Positions 49,982 to 61,988 of a DNA stretch of 64,000 bases are shown here, one piece after another. The DNA comes from Streptomyces marianii (lineage in GTDB: Bacteria; Actinomycetota; Actinomycetes; Streptomycetales; Streptomycetaceae). The DNA lies in the NCBI RefSeq assembly GCF_005795905.1, contig NZ_VAWE01000001.1, positions 5,321,001-5,385,000 of the forward strand, given 5' to 3'. Every line of letters starts with the position of its first letter. The stretch's first letter is position 1. The position numbers were made by a program, and so were the translations under genes. Below the pieces are notes generated by a model, which worked only from the letters and a program-made list of their open reading frames with translations, ran no database searches and was not told the origin of the DNA.

Positions 49982-51934
49982 CTACGGGACCTCGACCCAG
50001 ACGGCCTCCGACGGGGTGCCCTTGTCGTCCGTCACGAACAGCATGTACCAGCCGGACGGGACCAGGGAGCGGTTCTCGGGCACGGTGACCTCGAAACCGC
50101 CCGCCGTCTTCGTCATCTCCAGCGCGATGGACCGCTGGTCGACATCGGTCACATGCGTCACCGCGCTGGGCCGCATCAGCTTCGCCGACTTCAGCTTCGC
50201 CGCGTCCGGACTCTTGAAGGTCGCCGAGCCACCGCGCGCGATCTTCTTCGGGCCGGCGCCGATCTCCGGCCGGGAGTCCCGGAAGAGGTAGGGCGGGGTG
50301 TAGATCTCGATCCGCTGCTCGAAGACGCCGGGCTTGGTGTTGGCGTCGTCGCCGAAGAGCGAGTCGGAGCCGAAGATCATCACCCGGCCGTCGGGCAGCA
50401 GCACCGAACCCGAGTGGTAGTTGCGGCCGACCCGGGGGTCGGCGATCCGTGTGTACTCGCCCGTCTTCGGGTCGTAGGTGCGCGCCTGGAGGATGTTGGA
50501 GCCGCTGCGGCCCCGATAGTCCTCGGAGCCGCCGGTGACCAGGACGCTGTCGTCCGGCATCAGCGAGGCGCTCGGGTAGCGCGTGCCCTTGTCGAGGGAG
50601 GCGCCGTCCTTGAAGCGGGGCTGCGGGTCCTTCAGATCGACCAGCCGGGACTTCTCGCTGGACTTCTCGGACTCGCCGACCCCGCCGCCGCCGATGACCA
50701 TGAACCGCTGGTCCTGGGCGGGCGGCAGCATCACGGTCGCCGAGGTCTCCATCAGGTCCGGGTCGCTCAGCCCGGGCACCTTGGTGAACTTGTTGGTGTC
50801 CAGGTCCCAGATCCCGGGGTCACGGCCGACGTCCGCGGGACCGTATCCGGCGTTGGAACCGGAGTAGAAGAGCTTCCCGTTGTCCATCAGGAAGATCGCC
50901 GGGTAGGTCGGGAAGCGCCGCTCGAAGCCGGTGTACTCCCACTTCTTCGTCTTCGGGTCGTAGATCTCGTCCTTGCCCGGGACGATCTGGCCGATCTCGT
51001 CCAGGCCGGACAGGGACAGGACCCTGCCGTCCTCGAGCGTGGTGAGCGTGGGATACCAGCGGGCCTCGTTCATCGGGTCGACGGTGATGTACTTCTCCGC
51101 GACCGGGTCGAACTCGTAGGCCTCCTTGATGCCCTGGAAGTCCTTCTTGTCGAGGGCGAGCTTCTGCGCGATGCCGTAGACGTTCCGGTTGTCCGAGCCC
51201 TTGAGCCCGTGCACCCGGTAGTTGTCCTCGGTGCCGGTCTCGTACGACCTCCCGGACTTCGAGGCCTCGACGTAGATCCGGCCGAGACCCGCCTCGGTGC
51301 GCAGGAACCGCCCGGTCTCCTTGTCGAAGACCTTCTTCGCCTTCTCGACGAGGACCGGGTCCTTGGAGACGAACGTCTTGCCGTTCTTCTTGCCGGTGAA
51401 CTTGGTGCCCGCGGGCAGGGTGATCGGCTTGTCCGGATCCTCGTTGTGGACGATCATCAGGCCGCCGGCCTTGGTGACGTCACCCTGGAGCTTCTCGTAC
51501 CGCTTGGTGCCGCCCGCGACCAGCAGCTTGCCGTCGGGCAGCTGGGTGTGCCCGGCGCAGAACATGTCCTTGGGCGTGGGTATGTGCTTGAAGTCGTTCG
51601 TCTTCGGATCCCACAGCACCGACTCGAACTTCTTGGCGTCGAAGTTCTTCTGGTTGTTGCCGGAGCCGGCGATCAGCAGCACCTTGCCGGTGTGGAGCAG
51701 GGCGGCGTGGATCGTGTTGATCTTGTACTTCTCCGGGACGTCGAGGAAGTCCCAGTGGCCGTTCGCCGCCTTGTACTCGGGCCGGTTGATCTTGTACTCG
51801 TGGTACTGCTCCGAGCCGTACCGGTACATCGCCGGTCCGTTGAACCCGGCGATCGCCGCCACGACCGCCGCGCCGATCAGGATCCGTCGGGCCCGGTTCT
51901 TCCGGTGGTTCGGCCGGACGGGAAGTGTGCTCAT
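49982..51934 (-). CDS. glxA: GlxA, galactose-oxidase-like copper radical oxidase
   Basis: 650 aa. One N-terminal membrane anchor (RILIGAAVVAAIAGFNGPA) is followed by a kelch-type beta-propeller. The Tyr-Cys cofactor pair is C126 in DMFCAGHT and the Tyr of NEARWYPTLTT (about 275). Copper ligands are the Tyr-His of VGRNYHSGS and the His of AVTHVTDVDQRS in the C-terminal domain. In Streptomyces GlxA oxidises the product of CslA at the hyphal tip and is needed for aerial growth and pellet formation. Its ATG overlaps the cslA stop by 4 bases, so both are co-translated. Confidence 0.95.
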   Translation of the reverse strand: MSTLPVRPNHRKNRARRILIGAAVVAAIAGFNGPAMYRYGSEQYHEYKINRPEYKAANGHWDFLDVPEKYKINTIHAALLHTGKVLLIAGSGNNQKNFDAKKFESVLWDPKTNDFKHIPTPKDMFCAGHTQLPDGKLLVAGGTKRYEKLQGDVTKAGGLMIVHNEDPDKPITLPAGTKFTGKKNGKTFVSKDPVLVEKAKKVFDKETGRFLRTEAGLGRIYVEASKSGRSYETGTEDNYRVHGLKGSDNRNVYGIAQKLALDKKDFQGIKEAYEFDPVAEKYITVDPMNEARWYPTLTTLEDGRVLSLSGLDEIGQIVPGKDEIYDPKTKKWEYTGFERRFPTYPAIFLMDNGKLFYSGSNAGYGPADVGRDPGIWDLDTNKFTKVPGLSDPDLMETSATVMLPPAQDQRFMVIGGGGVGESEKSSEKSRLVDLKDPQPRFKDGASLDKGTRYPSASLMPDDSVLVTGGSEDYRGRSGSNILQARTYDPKTGEYTRIADPRVGRNYHSGSVLLPDGRVMIFGSDSLFGDDANTKPGVFEQRIEIYTPPYLFRDSRPEIGAGPKKIARGGSATFKSPDAAKLKSAKLMRPSAVTHVTDVDQRSIALEMTKTAGGFEVTVPENRSLVPSGWYMLFVTDDKGTPSEAVWVEVP

Positions 51935-53865
51935 TTCTTACGTCCCCCAAGGGCGATCTGCATGGTCTGGTCCGCGGGGGCCCACTGCTGCTCATGGGCG
52001 GCAGGGGGCACGGCCTCGGAGGCCCCGCCGCCCGTCCCCGGCTTCGCACGGCGCCGCCCCCTCCGCTTCCTCTTCTCCTCGCGGATCGCGTACCGCCAGG
52101 CGAAGACGGGCGCCGCGGTGATCAGCAGGGCCAGGCCGGCCCAGGTGATCATCGCCGGGTGGTCGTGCCCGAACCAGAACGAGGAGACGAGCGAGCCGCC
52201 GAAGACCAGGATGAAGAAGAGGTGGATCCGGAACGTGCCGAAGAGCGTGTCCGGGCTGGAGGAGTCGCCCTTGGGCGTCACCACGAACTTGCTCTTGCGG
52301 CGCAGCGCGGCGTCCATCAGGGAGCGGGCATAGATCGGCGCGGAGAGCGCGGACATCACCATGCCGGCCAGGCCGCCGGAGCCCTCGGGCTCGTGGGGCG
52401 ACACGTTGTGGCGGCGGTTCCAGATGTAGAGGCCGATCTGCAGGGCCGAGGCGTTGCCGTACAGCATCATCCAGATGGCCGGGTCGATCTGCACGCCCGA
52501 GGCGCCCATGCCCAGGAACAGCGCACAGCTGAGGGCCGCCAGGATCCAGTTGAGGGCGGACATCGGGTAGAAGATGATCATCATCGTGTAGTTGAAGAGC
52601 TTTCCGGCCGGCAGTGTGCCGAAGCCCTTCCAGTACTGCTTGAGGATCGTCTCGTACGTGCCGCGGGACCAGCGCAGCTGCTGGGTGAAGAAGTCGGTCC
52701 AGGCGGACGGGCCCTCACCGACGGCCAGGACGTCCGGGGTGTACACGGACCGCCACTTGTTGCCGGTGCCCGGATTCTTGGCCCGGTGCATCTCGAAGCC
52801 GGTGGCCATGTCCTCGGTGATCGAGTCGTACAGGCCGCCGATCTGCTTGATGGCGCTGATGCGCACGGCGTTGGAGGTGCCGACGAACATGGGGGCGCCG
52901 TAGCGGTTGCCGGCGCGCTGGATCAGGGCGTGGAAGAGGAACTGCTGGGACTCCGCGGCCTTGGTGACGAAGGTGTCGTAGTTGCCGTAGACCTGCGGGC
53001 CGATGACGAATCCGACGTCCGGGTCGCGGAAGTACCCGAGCATCCGCTCCAGGTAGTTCGGCAGCGGTACATGGTCGGTGTCGACGGACGCGAAGAAGTC
53101 GTAGTCCCCGCCGTGCGCCTCGAGCCAGGCGTTGTAGTTGCCGTGCTTGGTCTTGGCCCGGTGGGCGCCCTTCTCCTGGTTCCACTTGGCTACGCCCTTG
53201 CGGGAGAAGTGGTGGACGCCGAGCCGTTCGCAGACCTCCTTCACGGCCGGGTCGTCGCCCTCGTCGAGCAGCCAGACGTGCATCAGCCCGCGGTGGCGGA
53301 TCTTCACGGCCGCCTCGAGCGTCTTGGTCACCATCTCCAGGGGCTCCTTGCCCGGCACGAAGGAGGTGAGGAAGGCGACGCGGGTGCCGGACTCCGGCAC
53401 GACGGGTATCGGATCGCGGGCGACGAGTGTCGCGTGTGCGTTCGACAGGACGTTCATCGTGCGGAAGAGCTCGATCAGGCCGATCGAGACGAGCATGACG
53501 ACGTCGAGCCACAGCAGCAGCTCGTTGTCCAGATTGGGGTCGCGCTCCGTCCAGTGCTGCGGCTGCATCAGCCAGGCGAACAGACCCAGCGAGACCAGCG
53601 GCGCGGCCCCGAGGAGCAGAGCGGCGCGGACGCGGTGCGGCTCCTGCGACAGCAGCGAGCGGTACTGCACCTTGTACGGTTTCGACGGGTTCGGCTGGGT
53701 CAGGGGACCGGCCAGCCGGCTGTAATGCTCGTAGTCGTACCTCGGCAGCGCCTTCCTGGGGCGCAACCGGTGGCCTCCCGTCCTGAGCTGCGGGGGAACC
53801 CGAAGCTGCGTGGTCCGGGAAGGGTCGTCGTCCTGCTGCCGGGCGCCGTTCGGCGTCGACGTCAT
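51931..53865 (-). CDS. cslA: Cellulose synthase-like glycosyltransferase CslA
   Basis: 644 aa, GT2 family. Two N-terminal helices (VRAALLLGAAPLVSLGLFAWL, LLLWLDVVMLVSIGLIELF) are followed by the catalytic domain. That domain has VAFLTSFVPGKEPLEMVTKTL, the UDP-binding VWLLDEGDD, the DTDHVP metal motif, ITEDMATGFEMH (TED) and QQLRWSRGTYE (QxxRW). C-terminal helices complete the pore. It makes a beta-linked glycan at the hyphal tip together with GlxA. The gene is first in the operon with glxA. The assignment rests on both family motifs and the well-known gene pair. Confidence 0.95.
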   Translation of the reverse strand: MTSTPNGARQQDDDPSRTTQLRVPPQLRTGGHRLRPRKALPRYDYEHYSRLAGPLTQPNPSKPYKVQYRSLLSQEPHRVRAALLLGAAPLVSLGLFAWLMQPQHWTERDPNLDNELLLWLDVVMLVSIGLIELFRTMNVLSNAHATLVARDPIPVVPESGTRVAFLTSFVPGKEPLEMVTKTLEAAVKIRHRGLMHVWLLDEGDDPAVKEVCERLGVHHFSRKGVAKWNQEKGAHRAKTKHGNYNAWLEAHGGDYDFFASVDTDHVPLPNYLERMLGYFRDPDVGFVIGPQVYGNYDTFVTKAAESQQFLFHALIQRAGNRYGAPMFVGTSNAVRISAIKQIGGLYDSITEDMATGFEMHRAKNPGTGNKWRSVYTPDVLAVGEGPSAWTDFFTQQLRWSRGTYETILKQYWKGFGTLPAGKLFNYTMMIIFYPMSALNWILAALSCALFLGMGASGVQIDPAIWMMLYGNASALQIGLYIWNRRHNVSPHEPEGSGGLAGMVMSALSAPIYARSLMDAALRRKSKFVVTPKGDSSSPDTLFGTFRIHLFFILVFGGSLVSSFWFGHDHPAMITWAGLALLITAAPVFAWRYAIREEKRKRRGRRRAKPGTGGGASEAVPPAAHEQQWAPADQTMQIALGGRKK

Positions 53866-54131: not shown

Positions 54132-54647
54132 GGAAGAATCCCCCGCGTGGCCAACGCACTGCAGGAATTGGTGAAGATCCGGCTGGAGCAGCAGGGCTGG
54201 TCCTACGGCGACGTGGCCCGGCGCGGCGGCATTCCGCGTTCCACCGTGCACCACCTGGCCACCGCCGAACGCGTCACCCGTATGCCGCAGCAGGCCACGC
54301 TCGAGGGCCTGGCCAGAGGACTGGAACTGCCCCTGGACTCCGTCCGCAGGGCCGCGGCCGAAGCCTGCGGAATCCACCTGTACTTCGAGGAGACCCCCGG
54401 CACACCCGCCGACCCCGAGGTCGCCACCCTCATCGCCAGCGTCCAGCAGCTCTCCCCGGCCGACCGCCGGCACGTCACCGCACTCGTCGAATCCCTCCTG
54501 CGCAACACCGGCGCAGACACCGGCGCAGACACCGGCACACGCACAGGCACCCCCACGGGCCACGACACCGACCCCCACCCCGGCACGAACCCCCACCCCG
54601 ACACCGACTGAACCGGGCCCCGGCGACAACCGTCCCCACCGCAGGGC
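54132..54647. repeat. Left arm of a roughly 0.5-kb inverted duplication (XRE gene copy 1)
   Basis: This 516-bp stretch is repeated in inverted orientation at 61223-61726 (504 bp). The only large difference I see is one extra 12-bp unit near the 3' end of the gene here. Similarity begins 15 bases upstream of the gene start and ends about 36 bases after its stop. Confidence 0.85.
54147..54611 (+). CDS. XRE-family regulator, copy 1
   Basis: 154 aa. The HTH occupies residues 5-60 (LVKIRLEQQGWSYGDVARRGGIPRSTVHHLATAERVTRMP), followed by a short helical region (TPADPEVATLIASVQQLSPADRRHVTALVESLLRN) and a Thr/Asp/His/Pro-rich tail made of TG(A)DTG units. GTG 54147 is the start by comparison with the second copy. 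An almost identical inverted copy is at 61259-61711. The two frame the peptide locus and may control it, but no operator has been identified. Confidence 0.85.
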   Translation: MANALQELVKIRLEQQGWSYGDVARRGGIPRSTVHHLATAERVTRMPQQATLEGLARGLELPLDSVRRAAAEACGIHLYFEETPGTPADPEVATLIASVQQLSPADRRHVTALVESLLRNTGADTGADTGTRTGTPTGHDTDPHPGTNPHPDTD

Positions 54648-56530: not shown

Positions 56531-56749
56531 ATGCTTGGCATGCGAGAACTGGACGCCGAGGCAGCCGCAGAGCTGCTGCCCGGGCGTGAGGCCCTGGGCC
56601 GGCTGCGGTTCAACTTCGTCAGGACCACGAACGTGAGCGAGCGCATCGCCTACGTCAGTGCCCACAACGAGTCGCTCGCCGCCAACGTCTGCTCGCCGGA
56701 CGCCGTCGCGGCCTCCGACGCCTCCCAGTCCATCAGCGTCCGCCAGTAG
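56531..56749 (+). CDS. RiPP-type precursor peptide 1 (72 aa)
   Basis: First of three tandem, nearly identical small genes. Residues about 9-51 (AEAAAELLPGREALGRLRFN ... AHNESLA) are the same in all three; only the first few residues and the C-terminal 21 vary, ending SQSISVRQ here. The C-terminal part is rich in Ser, Ala, Asn and Val in an alternating pattern, and copy 1 alone has a Cys (NVCSPD). There is no signal peptide. AAAGGA lies 7 bases before the ATG; an in-frame ATG at 56540 is an alternative. A PqqD-like/M50 protease follows the array, the usual companion of processed peptides. The modification type is unknown. Confidence 0.72.
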   Translation: MLGMRELDAEAAAELLPGREALGRLRFNFVRTTNVSERIAYVSAHNESLAANVCSPDAVAASDASQSISVRQ

Positions 56750-56779
56750 CGGCGCTTCCTTCCCGAAGGGGTTTCCACC

Positions 56780-56995
56780 ATGAACGTCGAAGAGCTCGAG
56801 GCCGAGGCAGCCGCAGAGCTGCTGCCCGGGCGTGAGGCCCTGGGCCGGCTGCGGTTCAACTTCGTCAGGACCACGAACGTGAGCGAGCGCATCGCCTACG
56901 TCAGTGCCCACAACGAGTCGCTCGCGACCAACATCAACTCCCCGTACGCCGTCGCGGCCTCGTCCGCCGCCCAGTCCATCAGCGTCAGCCAGTAG
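56780..56995 (+). CDS. RiPP-type precursor peptide 2 (71 aa)
   Basis: Second copy. It starts MNVEELEAEAAAELLPGREA; the shared core is identical in protein to copies 1 and 3. The C-terminal part is TNINSPYAVAASSAAQSISV. The start is preceded by CCGAAGGGGTTTCC (56763-56776), repeated with small changes before copy 3, which probably serves as the ribosome site region. The gene-to-gene period is 247-249 bp with about 30 bp between stops and starts, so the three are one transcript. Silent sites are conserved too, pointing to recent duplication. Confidence 0.72.
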   Translation: MNVEELEAEAAAELLPGREALGRLRFNFVRTTNVSERIAYVSAHNESLATNINSPYAVAASSAAQSISVSQ

Positions 56996-57026
56996 CCGGC
57001 GCTCGCTTCCGAGAGGGGTTTCCACC

Positions 57027-57242
57027 ATGAACAACGACCAGCTCAACGCCGAGGCAGCCGCCGAACTGCTGCCCGGGCGTGAGGCCCTGGGCCGGCTGCG
57101 GTTCAACTTCGTCAGGACCACGAACGTGAGCGAGCGCATCGCCTACGTCAGTGCCCACAACGAGTCGCTCGCCGCCAACGTCGACTCCCCGGACGCCGTC
57201 GCGGCCTCCGAGGCGACCCAGTCCATCTCGATCAGCCAGTAA
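57027..57242 (+). CDS. RiPP-type precursor peptide 3 (71 aa)
   Basis: Third copy. It starts MNNDQLNAEAAAELLPGREA, keeps the invariant middle and ends ANVDSPDAVAASEATQSISI-SQ. The variable tail is the likely product region and the invariant part the leader or a common core. No double-Gly cleavage site is seen. The gene is followed after 66 bp by the PqqD-like/M50 protease. In all three, Asn, Ser, Ala and Gln at regular spacing in the tail would suit a beta-strand or surface-active peptide; this is speculation. Confidence 0.72.
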   Translation: MNNDQLNAEAAAELLPGREALGRLRFNFVRTTNVSERIAYVSAHNESLAANVDSPDAVAASEATQSISISQ

Positions 57243-57308
57243 CGAGCCCGGTCGTGTGCGGGCCGCGTGCTTGGGGGCGCGGCCCGTACCGGGAGGAAGA
57301 GCAGGACG

Positions 57309-59144
57309 GTGACCGAAAGCCAGAAGGTCCACCCCGGTCCCGTGGGGGCGGCCGCCTGCAAAACGGGCGACGTGGCTCACCCGTACGAATACACGGAGAC
57401 CCTGTTTCCCGTTCCGCGCCTGGGTGCGGGACTCCAGTTCCTCGGCGAGTACCAGGGATCCGGCTTCACGGAGCGCAAGTACCTGGTCCGCCGAGGGGAC
57501 GGGCAGGTGGTCCAGCTCTCCCGATTGCTCTACCTGGTGGCCGAAGCCATCGACGGCGTACGCGACACCGAGACCGTCTCGCACCGGGTCAGTGGGCGCT
57601 ACGGACGGGAGGTGAGCGCCGACAACATCGAGTACCTCATCGAGCAGAAACTCCAACCGCTCGGCATCACCGTCCCCTTCGGGCAGGAGGGCGACCAGGT
57701 CGCCGGCCCCACCACCGACCTCCTCCTGGTCCTCAAGGGTCATCGGGTGGTCTTCAGTGAGCGGCAGGTGGCCCGTATCGCCGCGGCGCTCGCCTGGCTG
57801 CACCGTCCACCGGTCGTGGTCCTGGTGCTGTCCGCGGCGCTCTGCGTGGACATCTGGCTGTTCGCCGTCCACGGAGCGATCGCGCCGGTGCTGCAGGTGC
57901 TGGAGCAGCCCGTCCTGATGCTCGCCGTCTTCGCACTGATCGTGGCATCGCTGGTCTTCCACGAGTTCGGCCACGCTTCGGCGTGCAGATACGGCGGTGC
58001 GCGCCCCGGGAGCATCGGCTGCGGCCTCTTCCTGATCTGGCCCTCGATGTACACCGAAGTCACCGACGTCTACCGCATCGGGCGGGCCGGCCGGATCCGG
58101 ACCGACCTGGGCGGGATCTACTTCAACGTGGTCTTCGTGCTGGGGCTCGCCCTGGCGTACCTCCTCACGGGCCAGCCCCTCTTCCTCGCCGCGATCTACC
58201 TCGTCCACTTCGAGATCCTGGAGCAGCTGCTGCCGGTGGTCCGGCTGGACGGCTACTACATTCTCGGGGACCTCGCGGGAATCCCCGACCTCTTCGGGAA
58301 GATCAAGCCCATCCTGCGGTCCGTGCTGCCGGGACGTTCGCCGTCCCCGGAGGTGGCCGGGCTGAAGCGGCCGGCGAGGATCATGGTCACCGCATGGGTC
58401 GCGACCATGGTGCCGCTGATCGTCGCCGAGCTCGGCTACGTCCTGTGGAACCTCCCCCGCCTGCTCACCACGAGCCTGCGCTCACTGGCGGAACAGGTGG
58501 CGGGGACCTGGTCGGCCTTCGCCGACGGCCAGATCTCCGCCGGCCTCGTCGGGGTCGTCGGAAGCTTCATGCTCATCTGCCCCCTGGCCGGTGCGACCTA
58601 CCTCGCCGTACGGCTGGTGGGGCGGCTCGTGAGGGGCATCGCCCGGGCCACGGAGGGCAACACCCGGCTGCGGGTGGCCGTCTGGGGCGGCGTACTGGTG
58701 GGATCGGGCGCGCTCTGCGCGGCGTGGCTGACCGGTATGACCCCGGAGCCGCTGCCGCGGCAGCCGCCCATCGCCCCCATCCTCCAGCCCGGTGTCCCGA
58801 CGGTCCGCCCGACGGCTGCGGTCCCCGTCGCGGAGCGGCCCACCCCCGCCACCCCGGACCCGACCCTCCTCACCGGCCCACCGCCCGAGGCCCCCGCGCC
58901 CACGGCGAGTTCCGGTGCCCGCCCCGTCGGCCCGAGCGCCACCACGAGCGGCTCCCCGTCCGCGAGCCCCGTCGCGAACGTGCCGACACCAGTGCCGTCG
59001 AGCCCGACGCCGAGTCTGAGCCCTACCTCGGCGTCGCCTTCGGCCGACCCCAGCGCCTCGCCGACGCCGAGCACCACGCCGTCCGGATCCCCTTCACCCT
59101 CGGTGACCCCCTCGGCGTCGCAGAGCGCGACGGAGGAGCCGTAG
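57309..59144 (+). CDS. PqqD-like/M50 membrane metalloprotease of the peptide locus
   Basis: 611 aa. Residues about 25-120 form a PqqD/RRE-like domain (YLVRRGDGQVVQLSRLLYLVAEAIDG and VSADNIEYLIEQKL), which in RiPP systems binds the leader peptide. Then come several membrane helices with the M50 zinc motif H218-E-F-G-H222 (VFHEFGHASACRYGG) and RLDGYYILGDL as the third-ligand region. A Pro/Ser/Thr-rich outer tail of about 120 residues ends the protein. Such putative peptide zinc metalloproteases (YydH/SkfC-like) cleave or export modified peptides. GTG 57309 is taken as start. It follows the three precursor genes, so leader removal is its likely job. Confidence 0.82.
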   Translation: MTESQKVHPGPVGAAACKTGDVAHPYEYTETLFPVPRLGAGLQFLGEYQGSGFTERKYLVRRGDGQVVQLSRLLYLVAEAIDGVRDTETVSHRVSGRYGREVSADNIEYLIEQKLQPLGITVPFGQEGDQVAGPTTDLLLVLKGHRVVFSERQVARIAAALAWLHRPPVVVLVLSAALCVDIWLFAVHGAIAPVLQVLEQPVLMLAVFALIVASLVFHEFGHASACRYGGARPGSIGCGLFLIWPSMYTEVTDVYRIGRAGRIRTDLGGIYFNVVFVLGLALAYLLTGQPLFLAAIYLVHFEILEQLLPVVRLDGYYILGDLAGIPDLFGKIKPILRSVLPGRSPSPEVAGLKRPARIMVTAWVATMVPLIVAELGYVLWNLPRLLTTSLRSLAEQVAGTWSAFADGQISAGLVGVVGSFMLICPLAGATYLAVRLVGRLVRGIARATEGNTRLRVAVWGGVLVGSGALCAAWLTGMTPEPLPRQPPIAPILQPGVPTVRPTAAVPVAERPTPATPDPTLLTGPPPEAPAPTASSGARPVGPSATTSGSPSASPVANVPTPVPSSPTPSLSPTSASPSADPSASPTPSTTPSGSPSPSVTPSASQSATEEP

Positions 59145-59219
59145 GCCCGACCGCACCTTCGGCCTCTCCGGCCCCGATCGCCACTGCCGATTCCTCGAAC
59201 ATCCGCAAAGGAGCAACCG

Positions 59220-59903
59220 ATGACGCACCGAAAACCACGCACCGGCCACGGTGGCCGCAGAGCCGCACGGTTCGGCATGCTCGTCGCCGCCTGTGCGGCC
59301 GGCTTTGCCACGGCGAGCCCGGCCGGGGCATCGTCCCTGTCGGCCGGCAACCGCTATGTCGGCATCGCGGTGGACGAAGCCCACGCGAACGCCGGACCCG
59401 GGCACCGCTTCGACTACGACGACGAGTTCGCGGTCCACGAGCTAGGAACGCGCCTCGGCGTCGGCGCGCGCAACAGGGCGGTCGCCCGTTCCGCGGGCTG
59501 CACGCTCGACAACCCGTGCCGCTCGGTCGCCCTGTCCTTCCAGGTCGTCACCGTCACCGGAACGATCACACGCCTCAACGCCGCGAACACCAGTCGTGCG
59601 GTCAACGACCACTGCGACGGCTGCCAGACGTTCGCGGGCGCGTACCAGTTCATCGTCTCCACCCCGTACTCGTTCACGTTGAGCCGCCCGGTCAGGAACG
59701 AACTCGCCCGGCTCGAAAGGCGACTGGGCGAACTGGAGCGCAGCCGCGAGCCGATCGCCACCGTCAGGAGCCGCGCCGACTCCCTGGCCGCCGAGGTCGT
59801 GAACCTGCTCAGGGGCGCGGTGGCGTCCGCACCCCGCGGCGAGGCCGTCAACCCGCTGCAGAGCTTCCGGCCCACCGTCACGATGCGGCGCCACATCGAC
59901 TAG
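59220..59903 (+). CDS. Secreted cysteine-containing protein of the peptide locus
   Basis: 227 aa. It begins with a signal peptide (RFGMLVAACAAGFATASPAGA). The mature part has two Cys pairs, AGCTLDNPCRSV (C-x5-C) and DHCDGCQT (C-x2-C). It also has the strands VALSFQVVTVTGTITRL and YQFIVSTPYSFTLS, and a helical part (LARLERRLGELERSREPIATV). No enzyme family is recognised. It follows the M50 gene by 75 bp in the same direction, so the two are probably expressed together. It may bind, protect from or display the peptides. Its TAG stop codon overlaps the first base of MITE C. Confidence 0.7.
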   Translation: MTHRKPRTGHGGRRAARFGMLVAACAAGFATASPAGASSLSAGNRYVGIAVDEAHANAGPGHRFDYDDEFAVHELGTRLGVGARNRAVARSAGCTLDNPCRSVALSFQVVTVTGTITRLNAANTSRAVNDHCDGCQTFAGAYQFIVSTPYSFTLSRPVRNELARLERRLGELERSREPIATVRSRADSLAAEVVNLLRGAVASAPRGEAVNPLQSFRPTVTMRRHID

Positions 59904-60340: not shown

Positions 60341-60634
60341 ATGAGTTACCCACCCGAGGTGCGTCGTCAGGCCCTCGACCTGCTGGCCATGGGCGAGCCC
60401 GTGAAGAAGGTCGCGGTCGACCTCGGCCTCAGTGAGCGGACGCTCTACCAGTGGCGGCGCAGATACCTGCCGCAACTGCGGCACCAGCGGTACTTCCCCG
60501 ACGCAGGGACGGAACTCACGGCCGCGCGCAGGCGCATCACGGAACTGGAGACCGAGGTCGCCGTCCTCCGGCGTGCGACCGAACTGCTGCGGGACACGAT
60601 GTCCCCAAAAGGCGATTCGAGGCAGTACGCGTGA
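60341..60634 (+). CDS. IS3-family transposase OrfA (HTH protein)
   Basis: 97 aa. It starts MSYPPEVRRQALDLLAMGEP, with the HTH (VKKVAVDLGLSERTLYQWRRRYLP, about 21-44) and a leucine-zipper-like helix (ITELETEVAVLRRATELLRD). This is the small first protein of IS3 elements, normally joined to OrfB by frameshifting. CCGGAGGA precedes the ATG. OrfA itself looks intact, but its partner is cut short, so the element cannot move by itself. It stands between MITE C and the second XRE copy. Confidence 0.85.
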   Translation: MSYPPEVRRQALDLLAMGEPVKKVAVDLGLSERTLYQWRRRYLPQLRHQRYFPDAGTELTAARRRITELETEVAVLRRATELLRDTMSPKGDSRQYA

Positions 60635-60954
60635 TGGCTCACGAGGGCTTGCCCGTGCGGATCGCCACGAGCGTTCTGGGGGTGACCGAGTCCGGGTACT
60701 TCACCTGGCGTTCCCGTCCTCCCTCCGCACGTTCCGTCCGCCACTCCTGGCTCACCGAAGTCATCTCCGCCATCCATGCCGCTTCGCACGGGACCTATGG
60801 ATACCGGCGCATCCACGACGAACTGACCTCGCGCCACGGCATCGTGGTCAGTCACGGCACGGTGCAGCTCCTGATGCGCCGCGCCGGCCTCCAGGGTCTC
60901 TCCGCCGGCGAACGGCGCCGTACCCGGCCGACTCCGAAGGGGTTTCCGGCCTGA
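60634..60954 (+). pseudogene. IS3-family transposase OrfB, N-terminal fragment
   Basis: The fragment begins MAHEGLPVRIATSVLGVTES and continues through SWLTEVISAIHAASHGTYGYRRIHDELTSRHG to LLMRRAGLQGL, the HTH_21 region before the integrase core. Normal OrfB is about 280-300 aa with a DDE catalytic domain; here only about 106 codons remain before an unrelated ending. The start overlaps the OrfA stop by one base (TGATG). Just before the truncation lies CCGAAGGGGTTTCC (60934-60947), identical to the sequence upstream of precursor gene 2. Confidence 0.85.
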
Positions 60955-60973: not shown

Positions 60974-61222
60974 ATGAGCATGGAATACCCGTCGTTCCCG
61001 ACTCCGCCGCTGCCCATCTCCACGTATTTGCGCCCTCATCTGCGGGTGGGGGAGGACCTGCCGGCGACCCAGGCCCACCAGGTGATGCTGCACTGCGCCC
61101 TGGACGCGGCATGCGTCCCCGTGCGGCTGACCGACACCCGTGCCGTCGCCCGGATCGCCGAACTCGACTTCCACACGGTGAACGCGGTGATCGGCTGGCT
61201 GCGAACGCTGAGCGAGCGCTGA
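60974..61222 (+). CDS. Small hypothetical protein, 82 aa
   Basis: It begins MSMEYPSFPTPPLPISTYLRPH and continues QAHQVMLHCALDAACVPVRLTDTRAVARIAELDFHTVNAVIGWLRTLSER. The helical C-terminal part looks folded; no family is recognised. There is no clear Shine-Dalgarno site. The stop codon TGA at 61220-61222 lies exactly at the edge of the inverted XRE duplication (61223), so the duplication ends there. It is convergent with XRE copy 2. It could be the regulator-linked partner on this side, as the 86-aa protein is on the other side. Confidence 0.6.
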   Translation: MSMEYPSFPTPPLPISTYLRPHLRVGEDLPATQAHQVMLHCALDAACVPVRLTDTRAVARIAELDFHTVNAVIGWLRTLSER

Positions 61223-61726
61223 GCCCTGCGGTGGGGACGGTTGTCGCCGGGGCCCGGTTCAGTCGGTGTCGGGGTGGGGGTTCGTGCCGGGGTGGGGGTC
61301 GGTGTCGTGGCCCGTGGGGGTGCCTGTGCGTGTGCCGGTGTCTGTGCCGGTGTTGCGCAGGAGGGATTCGACGAGTGCGGTGACGTGCCGGCGGTCGGCC
61401 GGGGAGAGCTGCTGGACGCTGGCGATGAGGGTGGCGACCTCGGGGTCGGCGGGTGTGCCGGGGGTCTCCTCGAAGTACAGGTGGATTCCGCAGGCTTCGG
61501 CCGCGGCCCTGCGGACGGAGTCCAGGGGCAGTTCCAGTCCTCTGGCCAGGCCCTCGAGCGTGGCCTGCTGCGGCATACGGGTGACGCGTTCGGCGGTGGC
61601 CAGGTGGTGCACGGTGGAACGCGGAATGCCGCCGCGCCGGGCCACGTCGCCGTAGGACCAGCCCTGCTGCTCCAGCCGGATCTTCACCAATTCCTGCAGT
61701 GCGTTGGCCACGCGGGGGATTCTTCC
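61223..61726. repeat. Right arm of the XRE inverted duplication
   Basis: Inverted counterpart of 54132-54647, 12 bp shorter. With it, it encloses about 6.6 kb containing the whole peptide locus. Confidence 0.85.
61259..61711 (-). CDS. XRE-family regulator, copy 2
   Basis: 150 aa. It is identical to copy 1 at 54147-54611 as far as I can read, except that the tail repeat TGADTGAD is shortened by four residues. The HTH is complete (SYGDVARRGGIPRSTVHHLA), so both copies should bind the same DNA site. GTG 61711 is the start, with the same upstream bases as copy 1. It points inward to the peptide locus, as copy 1 does from the other side. Confidence 0.85.
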   Translation of the reverse strand: MANALQELVKIRLEQQGWSYGDVARRGGIPRSTVHHLATAERVTRMPQQATLEGLARGLELPLDSVRRAAAEACGIHLYFEETPGTPADPEVATLIASVQQLSPADRRHVTALVESLLRNTGTDTGTRTGTPTGHDTDPHPGTNPHPDTD

Positions 61727-61892: not shown

Positions 61893-61914
61893 AGGTCAGC
61901 GAACTGATCGCTTG

Positions 61915-61988
61915 TGCGCCGCCAGGGACTCGAACCCCGGACCCGCTGATTAAGAGTCAGCTGCTCTAACCAACTGAGCTAGCGGCGC
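61915..61988 (-). tRNA. tRNA-Lys(CUU)
   Basis: On the minus strand the acceptor GCGCCGC/GCGGCGC, D-arm AGCTCAGTTGGTTAGAGC, anticodon stem GCTGA/TCAGC with loop CTCTTAA (anticodon CTT), and T-arm with TTCGAGT fold as a standard 74-nt class I tRNA. CCA is not encoded. Confidence 0.93.

Follow-up and report, generated by a model that had tools for sequence, protein, structure and literature searches.

We describe here a gene cassette from Streptomyces marianii. It lies on the forward strand, between positions 56531 and 59903 of a 64,000-nucleotide stretch of contig NZ_VAWE01000001.1 that is referred to below as the window. The cassette consists of three small tandem genes for precursor proteins, a gene for a membrane protease of the M50 type with a PqqD-like domain, and a gene for a protein with a signal-peptide-like N-terminus, designated SEC. 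The explanation we favour, with slightly less than even confidence, is that the three small open reading frames (ORFs) encode leader-bearing subunits of an extracellular β-sheet, perhaps amyloid-like, surface material. It draws on the recurrence of the cassette, the alternating conservation of the precursors, a hairpin prediction, a repeat relation between precursors and SEC, the fusion of SEC to the M50 protein in some relatives, the existence of long multi-repeat precursors, and the active-site and PqqD-like features of the protease.

The small ORFs are arranged head to tail within 56531-57242 on the + strand (precursor 1, 56531..56749, 72 aa; precursor 2, 56780..56995, 71 aa; precursor 3, 57027..57242, 71 aa). 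Their starts are 249 and 247 bp apart, leaving gaps of 30 and 31 bp. The gene of the M50 protein follows at 57309..59144 (+), where a GTG was chosen as the start because the relative in locus L004 starts there, and SEC is encoded at 59220..59903 (+). This row of three ORFs of 71-72 residues, a PqqD-like/M50 protein and a secreted cysteine-containing protein had been noticed in a sequence-only reading of the window, with which both the coordinates and the homologues agree. Over 245 bp, the copies of precursors 1 and 3 share 82% and 89% of their positions with the middle copy, and a search of the same genome with the middle ORF gave matches at these three places alone (E ≤ 0.001). In the database 369 homologues were found at E ≤ 0.01; the 120 listed came mostly from Streptomyces, others from Streptacidiphilus, Actinacidiphila and Phaeacidiphilus. 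Given the copies in the genome and the 369 homologues, the small ORFs are not chance ORFs. None of the precursors and SEC proteins tested gave a Pfam or NCBIfam match above the curated cut-off, so that the earlier view of a precursor family not yet characterised stands.

An alignment of 77 relatives revealed how the precursors are built. A strongly conserved leader contains the nearly invariant motif LLPGREALG, followed by FxF. Within the last 33 residues conservation alternates: positions 39, 41, 43, 45, 47, 49, 51 and 57, 59 and so on to 71 (IN positions) had values of 0.71-1.00 with a mean of 0.95, compared to a mean of 0.46 for the intervening OUT positions, the classes having been assigned by eye after the alignment had been viewed. 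The invariant S54 at the turn was left out of both classes. When the same positions were applied to 26 precursors of a distant family, the means were 0.95 and 0.57 (p = 1.5e-4), and a shift by one position reversed the sign of the difference. Such alternating conservation is the pattern expected of a β-strand with one buried face. In agreement with this, structure modelling predicted a C-terminal β-hairpin (pLDDT 74); for precursor 2 the model contains helices at residues 3-12 and 17-22 and strands at 40-50 and 60-70. A Foldseek search with the precursor found no significant fold match to a solved structure. The pore-forming toxin stems in its list had E values of 2.5 and above and were read as generic hairpins.

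In the sequence-only reading the C-terminal tail was the variable part, and an invariant 40-residue block was said to end just before it. A freely varying core is rejected because the variation is concentrated at alternate positions. As to the block, its DNA is nearly identical among the three copies as well: residues 8-49 showed no nonsynonymous and only 1-3 synonymous codon differences, and over this region the copies of the window were 98-99% alike among themselves but 91-95% alike to the copies of two relatives. This suggests that part of the invariance may be due to homogenisation between copies, in an uneven pattern, the first copies of the two relatives being 98% alike. Since the invariance looks partly like homogenisation, the end of the block does not mark a leader/core border.

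The second line of evidence comes from SEC. Its cysteines C94-x5-C100 and C132-x2-C135 were invariant in 63 sequences, in keeping with the emphasis that had been placed on these pairs and on the signal-peptide-like N-terminus. The predicted structure comprises three β-hairpins (residues 47-77, 80-113 and 118-148), with pLDDT mostly above 90 in the β part, and then two long helices. The SEC model had no significant fold match in PDB or among viral models, and when PDB was searched by sequence, with profiles of SEC, of the precursor and of the PqqD domain, nothing significant came up. Residues 40-67 of the precursor profile aligned without gaps to residues 118-145 of SEC, that is to the last of its three hairpins, with the common pattern A.N.S.A.N..[SC]......A.Q.I. 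The score of this alignment was 24.6 bits, compared to null means of 10-11, and was reached by 0, 0, 1 and 0 of 1000 shuffles in four schemes. When 439 ORFs from the 24 loci described below were scanned with the precursor matrix, precursors took the top 29 places and SEC proteins 11 of the 12 places below them; 3 of the 14 SEC ORFs remained at background level. A profile comparison with hhalign was weaker (26% and 13%) and less convincing than the shuffle test.

It might be asked whether this relation extends to other lineages. In a distant lineage the precursors read APVNAAVALNVLSDNSTAYANAEQ and SEC reads APENVAIAVNENCTACETLASAYQ. Pairs from the same lineage again scored above nearly all shuffles (P1-S1 was equalled in 0/1000, P2-S2 in 1/1000), whereas the crosswise pairs P1-S2 and P2-S1 were equalled in 123/1000 and 122/1000; this test used 26 of the 30 LPDRE-type precursors, 16 SEC rows including one stray fragment from L101, and an approximate background composition. 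The crosswise result tells against a single homology score for all lineages, although own-lineage and cross-lineage alignments had the same register. Because the match is lineage-specific, the precursor unit and its SEC partner have apparently changed in concert. Precursor 1 of the window, like the first precursors of L004, L005, L049 and L050, has a single cysteine near the turn, at about residue 53; in its siblings this place is taken by different residues. This cysteine lies close to the position of the SEC CxxC, and a mixed disulfide between the two is conceivable.

The M50 protein has a PqqD-like domain at approximately residues 40-125, a membrane protease part, about six hydrophobic segments in all and a C-terminal tail rich in Pro, Ser and Thr. 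Of 21 family members, at least 20 have the active-site motifs HEFGH (residues 218-222) and LDG (313-315). Comparison of the N-terminal domain with 16 PqqD domains by hhalign gave 93.8% (E 1.8e-7, PqqD positions 3-66 of 66), which bears out the proposed fusion of a domain of the PqqD or RiPP recognition element (RRE) type to an M50 protease; RiPP stands for ribosomally synthesised and post-translationally modified peptide. Single-sequence NCBIfam scans of this domain gave nothing for the protein of the window and weak matches only for its relatives, and PDB gave none. Against the daptide protease family NF041824 the M50 protein scored 82.9 bits (relatives 100-106 bits; cut-off 300), and against the YydH/LiaK family NF058609 47.8 bits (cut-off 225). 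Membership of the daptide or epipeptide families is thus ruled out, the scores being far below both cut-offs. The kinship of the M50 protein with the proteases of both pathways is distant.

According to PMC10036551, the daptide pathway has an RRE fused N-terminally to an intramembrane protease, and several precursors. The likeness of our cassette to that of the daptide protease MpaP therefore lies in the fusion of an RRE-type domain to a protease and in the multiplicity of precursors. It differs in that no decarboxylase, aminotransferase or methyltransferase of the daptide set was present among the genes scanned (50.0-61.7 kb), and in that the presumed core is a β repeat also found in a secreted protein. 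The epipeptide pathway contains a radical S-adenosylmethionine (SAM) epimerase, which is without counterpart in the window. What the epipeptide system (EpeX/EpeP, or YydF/YydH) has in common with the cassette is an M50 protease that probably does the cleaving and exporting; according to a review (PMC10885120), EpeP is thought to cleave as well as export its epipeptide. EpeP is the sole precedent that we can give for release by an M50 enzyme without a transporter. Of the sequence-only interpretation, the suggestion that the protease alone releases the peptides holds up best.

To assess recurrence, 24 stretches of up to 20 kb were compared: the window, three found via the M50 protein (a pattern search of genome contigs with three matches) and twenty found via precursors. 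As L066 is the same contig as L006, 23 of them are distinct. SEC was present in 24/24 and the M50 protein in 22/24, so the expectation that precursor and protease would regularly occur together proved correct. Two further genes accompany them. One (C3; 55926..56249, - strand in the window; 23/24 loci) encodes a conserved protein of about 90-107 aa without Pfam or NCBIfam match above the cut-off, the other an XRE-like helix-turn-helix (HTH) protein (61259..61711, -; 21/24 loci), possibly a regulator. In these comparisons co-occurrence with the gene used for the search is by selection (L049-L068 were picked by precursor matches, L099-L118 and L124-L137 by SEC matches). Within the genus the precursor was found in 14 of 150 sampled genomes, its own included, and the gene set is therefore patchy. 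The SEC profile matched at least 27 of 296 genomes and at least 15 of 114 genera in the class sample, a lower bound with nine candidates scored per listed genome, and 9 of 198 genomes (8 of 147 genera) in the phylum sample.

Around SEC matches 34 loci were fetched, of which 28 contained the M50 gene and 25 a precursor. In 11 of the 34, SEC was fused to the C-terminus of the M50 protein. All fused loci with a precursor (10/10; the eleventh is cut by a contig end) had a single multi-repeat protein of 214-276 residues, the length depending on the start chosen. These long precursors begin with a leader LP.KEV and continue with several blocks such as AAPIDLAVAANANVAAPINAAVGANVLS...INQGI...QDSSIDQ. 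At least 3624 relatives of one of them were found at E ≤ 0.001 among the best 7997 candidates scored. The best 120 of these relatives all contained the motif Q(1-2 any)[STAGD]x[IVL]xQ; 117 had an [LV]PDKE leader, three had a cysteine, and aromatic residues made up about 0.1%. Proteins of this kind are not small modified peptides. Several of the relatives are annotated as peptidoglycan-binding proteins, yet they have no recorded Pfam domain. Precursors can also stand directly beside SEC with no M50 match between them (L065, 870-2121; L128, 5577-7239), and in L099, L102, L124 and L126 a protein of about 265 residues without Pfam match is encoded right after SEC.

How might such a system work? 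With its PqqD-like domain the M50 protein would hold the N-terminal helix that carries the LPxRE motif, and its M50 site would cut the precursor at the membrane. The same protein may also export or release the C-terminal 35-45 residues or so. Outside the cell the released part would fold into its hairpin, the inward-facing Ala, Asn, Ser, Gln and Ile residues at the conserved alternate positions stacking on other units and on SEC while outward positions are free to vary. The resulting polymer, possibly in the form of fibres, would be located at the surface, with SEC serving as template, cap or anchor for the stacked units. A wider proposal, which is more doubtful and which we make only tentatively, is that this represents an undescribed secretion and assembly route found throughout the phylum Actinomycetota, in which an LPx[RK]E leader is read by PqqD-M50 proteins and the subunits polymerise outside, on a disulfide-bearing repeat protein that is either free or fused to the protease, into amyloid-like surface material. 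Among open-licence papers we recognised no prior description of this gene set.

By analogy, the system would function like curli or Fap but would be built with RiPP-type machinery. In the curli subunit CsgA the repeats are imperfect; Asn, Gln and small residues are conserved in them, and surface positions vary. For FapC, PMC12392863 describes three imperfect stacked repeats held by conserved Asn/Gln networks while surface residues vary. The likeness, in imperfect repeats, conserved Asn/Gln and alternating conserved positions, is one of repeat logic only: no sequence match to CsgA or FapC was listed and no significant fold match was found, no Csg or Fap transport genes were seen among the recurring neighbours looked up, and here each hairpin unit has a gene of its own, bears a RiPP-like leader and goes together with an M50 protease. 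Streptomycetes also make chaplins and rodlins, which PMC5314377 and PMC3079736 present as small, multi-copy, amyloid-forming surface proteins. The precursors resemble them in size, copy number and host, but there was no chaplin domain match (E up to 1) and the 77 short precursors lacked a signal-peptide-like hydrophobic stretch, their maximal 15-residue hydropathy within the first 60 residues being 1.19 (judged by hydropathy only). Long precursors reached a median of 1.54.

The hydropathy values also bear on a different explanation. The hairpin proteins would never leave the membrane or its surface, where the M50 protein would have them as substrates or regulators in the regulated intramembrane proteolysis of an envelope-stress pathway, and SEC would be the sensor outside. 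In favour of this, regulated proteolysis is a common task of M50 enzymes, SEC is fused to the protease in some loci and the HTH gene is close by. The short precursors, however, have no strongly hydrophobic segment, only the long ones come nearer to it, and several near-identical copies per operon are not what such a role would predict. We consider this explanation improbable. A better candidate, but still an unlikely one, is an unmodified secreted messenger or antimicrobial peptide for which SEC would be a same-fold receptor, carrier or self-protection protein. It would account for paralogues with differing outward residues, for the HTH protein in most loci and for the lineage-specific match between precursor and SEC. 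The long precursors, with their several repeats and their wealth of Ala, Asn, Ser and Gln, nevertheless suit a structural polymer better, and no toxin or signal family match above the curated cut-off was listed.

Somewhat more weight, though again well short of a probable explanation, can be given to a genuine RiPP whose core is modified by a distant enzyme (or, in certain species, by an oxidoreductase encoded nearby) and released by the M50 protein, SEC being an accessory or immunity protein. The typical trait of RRE-dependent RiPPs, a conserved-leader precursor beside a PqqD-like domain, is present, and the protease is related to the daptide (83 bits) and YydH/LiaK families. The window contained no radical SAM or YcaO match (lanthionine synthetases were not searched for), as the sequence-only reading had said; elsewhere the genome had 28 radical SAM and 7 YcaO matches. 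The accompanying statement that an ABC exporter is absent has to be qualified: of 267 ABC (ATP-binding cassette) ATPase candidates, 150 were scored; one of their matches falls at about 23.2-23.6 kb of the window, 33 kb from the cassette, and another beyond the window, downstream of SEC by about 10.5 kb. Apart from the GlxA-type oxidase, which is paired with a glycosyltransferase, the Pfam-scanned genes at 50.0-61.7 kb included no enzyme of the kind required.

Over 56 loci, 32 gene clusters recurred in at least three, and all except c9, c10, c17, c19 and c30 were looked up in Pfam. Ten Streptomyces loci share one chromosomal neighbourhood, with genes for a Bax-inhibitor-like protein (10), a thiolase (10) and a GDSL lipase (9). 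The same syntenic group has a flavin adenine dinucleotide (FAD) monooxygenase downstream of SEC (7), an ABC ATPase (7), an FtsX-type permease (5), a cyclopropane-synthase-type methyltransferase (5) and a pyridine-nucleotide oxidoreductase (4). The monooxygenase loci are L052, L057, L058, L059, L060, L129 and L131, and none was seen near the cassette of the window as far as it was scanned. A P450, a short-chain dehydrogenase, an MFS (major facilitator superfamily) transporter, a RecQ helicase, an HATPase and a LytR-type protein were each found in three loci. Because oxidoreductase and ABC genes occur in the syntenic group, our confidence in a surface material and in the wider secretion route is slightly lower, and that in a RiPP slightly higher. 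Among the recurring clusters looked up, no RiPP-type enzyme recurred across lineages. We take the neighbours limited to a subset of loci for genes of the neighbourhood, yet they keep the RiPP explanation alive. Further points against it are the similar leader on repeat proteins of 214-276 residues and the alternating conservation, which runs on until the C-terminus is reached and resembles that of a structural strand. Supported parts of the RiPP-type system proposed earlier are the leader-like N-terminus, the PqqD-M50 protein, its regular co-occurrence with the precursors and the failure to find a described family. Assignment to the RiPP class as such is not supported, given a hairpin of the SEC-repeat type, the long proteins and the lack of a lineage-wide enzyme; on sequence criteria the leader and the PqqD-like domain agree with that class, and the daptide and epipeptide family scores do not.

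The surroundings of the cassette in the window deserve brief mention. The interval between precursor 3 and the protease gene may form a stable RNA hairpin (57247..57293, +; -36.5 kcal/mol, z -2.4, equalled by 3/200 shuffles), a possible attenuator. Upstream of the cassette there are inverted second copies of the HTH gene (54147-54608, +; 96%) and of C3 (54814-55128, +; 88%), and just upstream of the cassette lies the pair of genes for the GlxA-type oxidase and a cellulose-synthase-like glycosyltransferase (49982-53865, -), which we take to be a hyphal-tip glycan locus. Downstream, two short transposase-derived ORFs (HTH_Tnp_1 and HTH_21; 60341-60954), with no DDE domain listed, are followed by a gene for an 82-residue protein (60974-61222), the HTH gene and a tRNA-Lys(CTT) gene (61914-61988, -). 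The HTH_21-type second ORF and the 82-residue protein recur jointly in L004, L005, L051, L053 and L062, as if the pair had been domesticated. A search for anti-phage systems gave no match for precursor, M50 protein, SEC or C3. The HTH protein gave just weak HTH-type matches (capH, E 2.9e-6), and a known anti-phage system is rejected.

Should the cassette indeed make a surface material of stacked β-repeats, leader recognition of the RiPP type would be joined to the biogenesis of functional amyloid, and PqqD-M50 proteins would gain a role beyond modified peptides. Such a material could explain part of the extracellular amyloid reported for actinobacteria. If instead the precursors are RiPPs without a local enzyme, they would make up an orphan class of considerable size. 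In both cases the analysis has now defined a widespread gene set that has no name, with SEC in at least 15 of the 114 genera sampled from the class and at least 3624 relatives of one long precursor.

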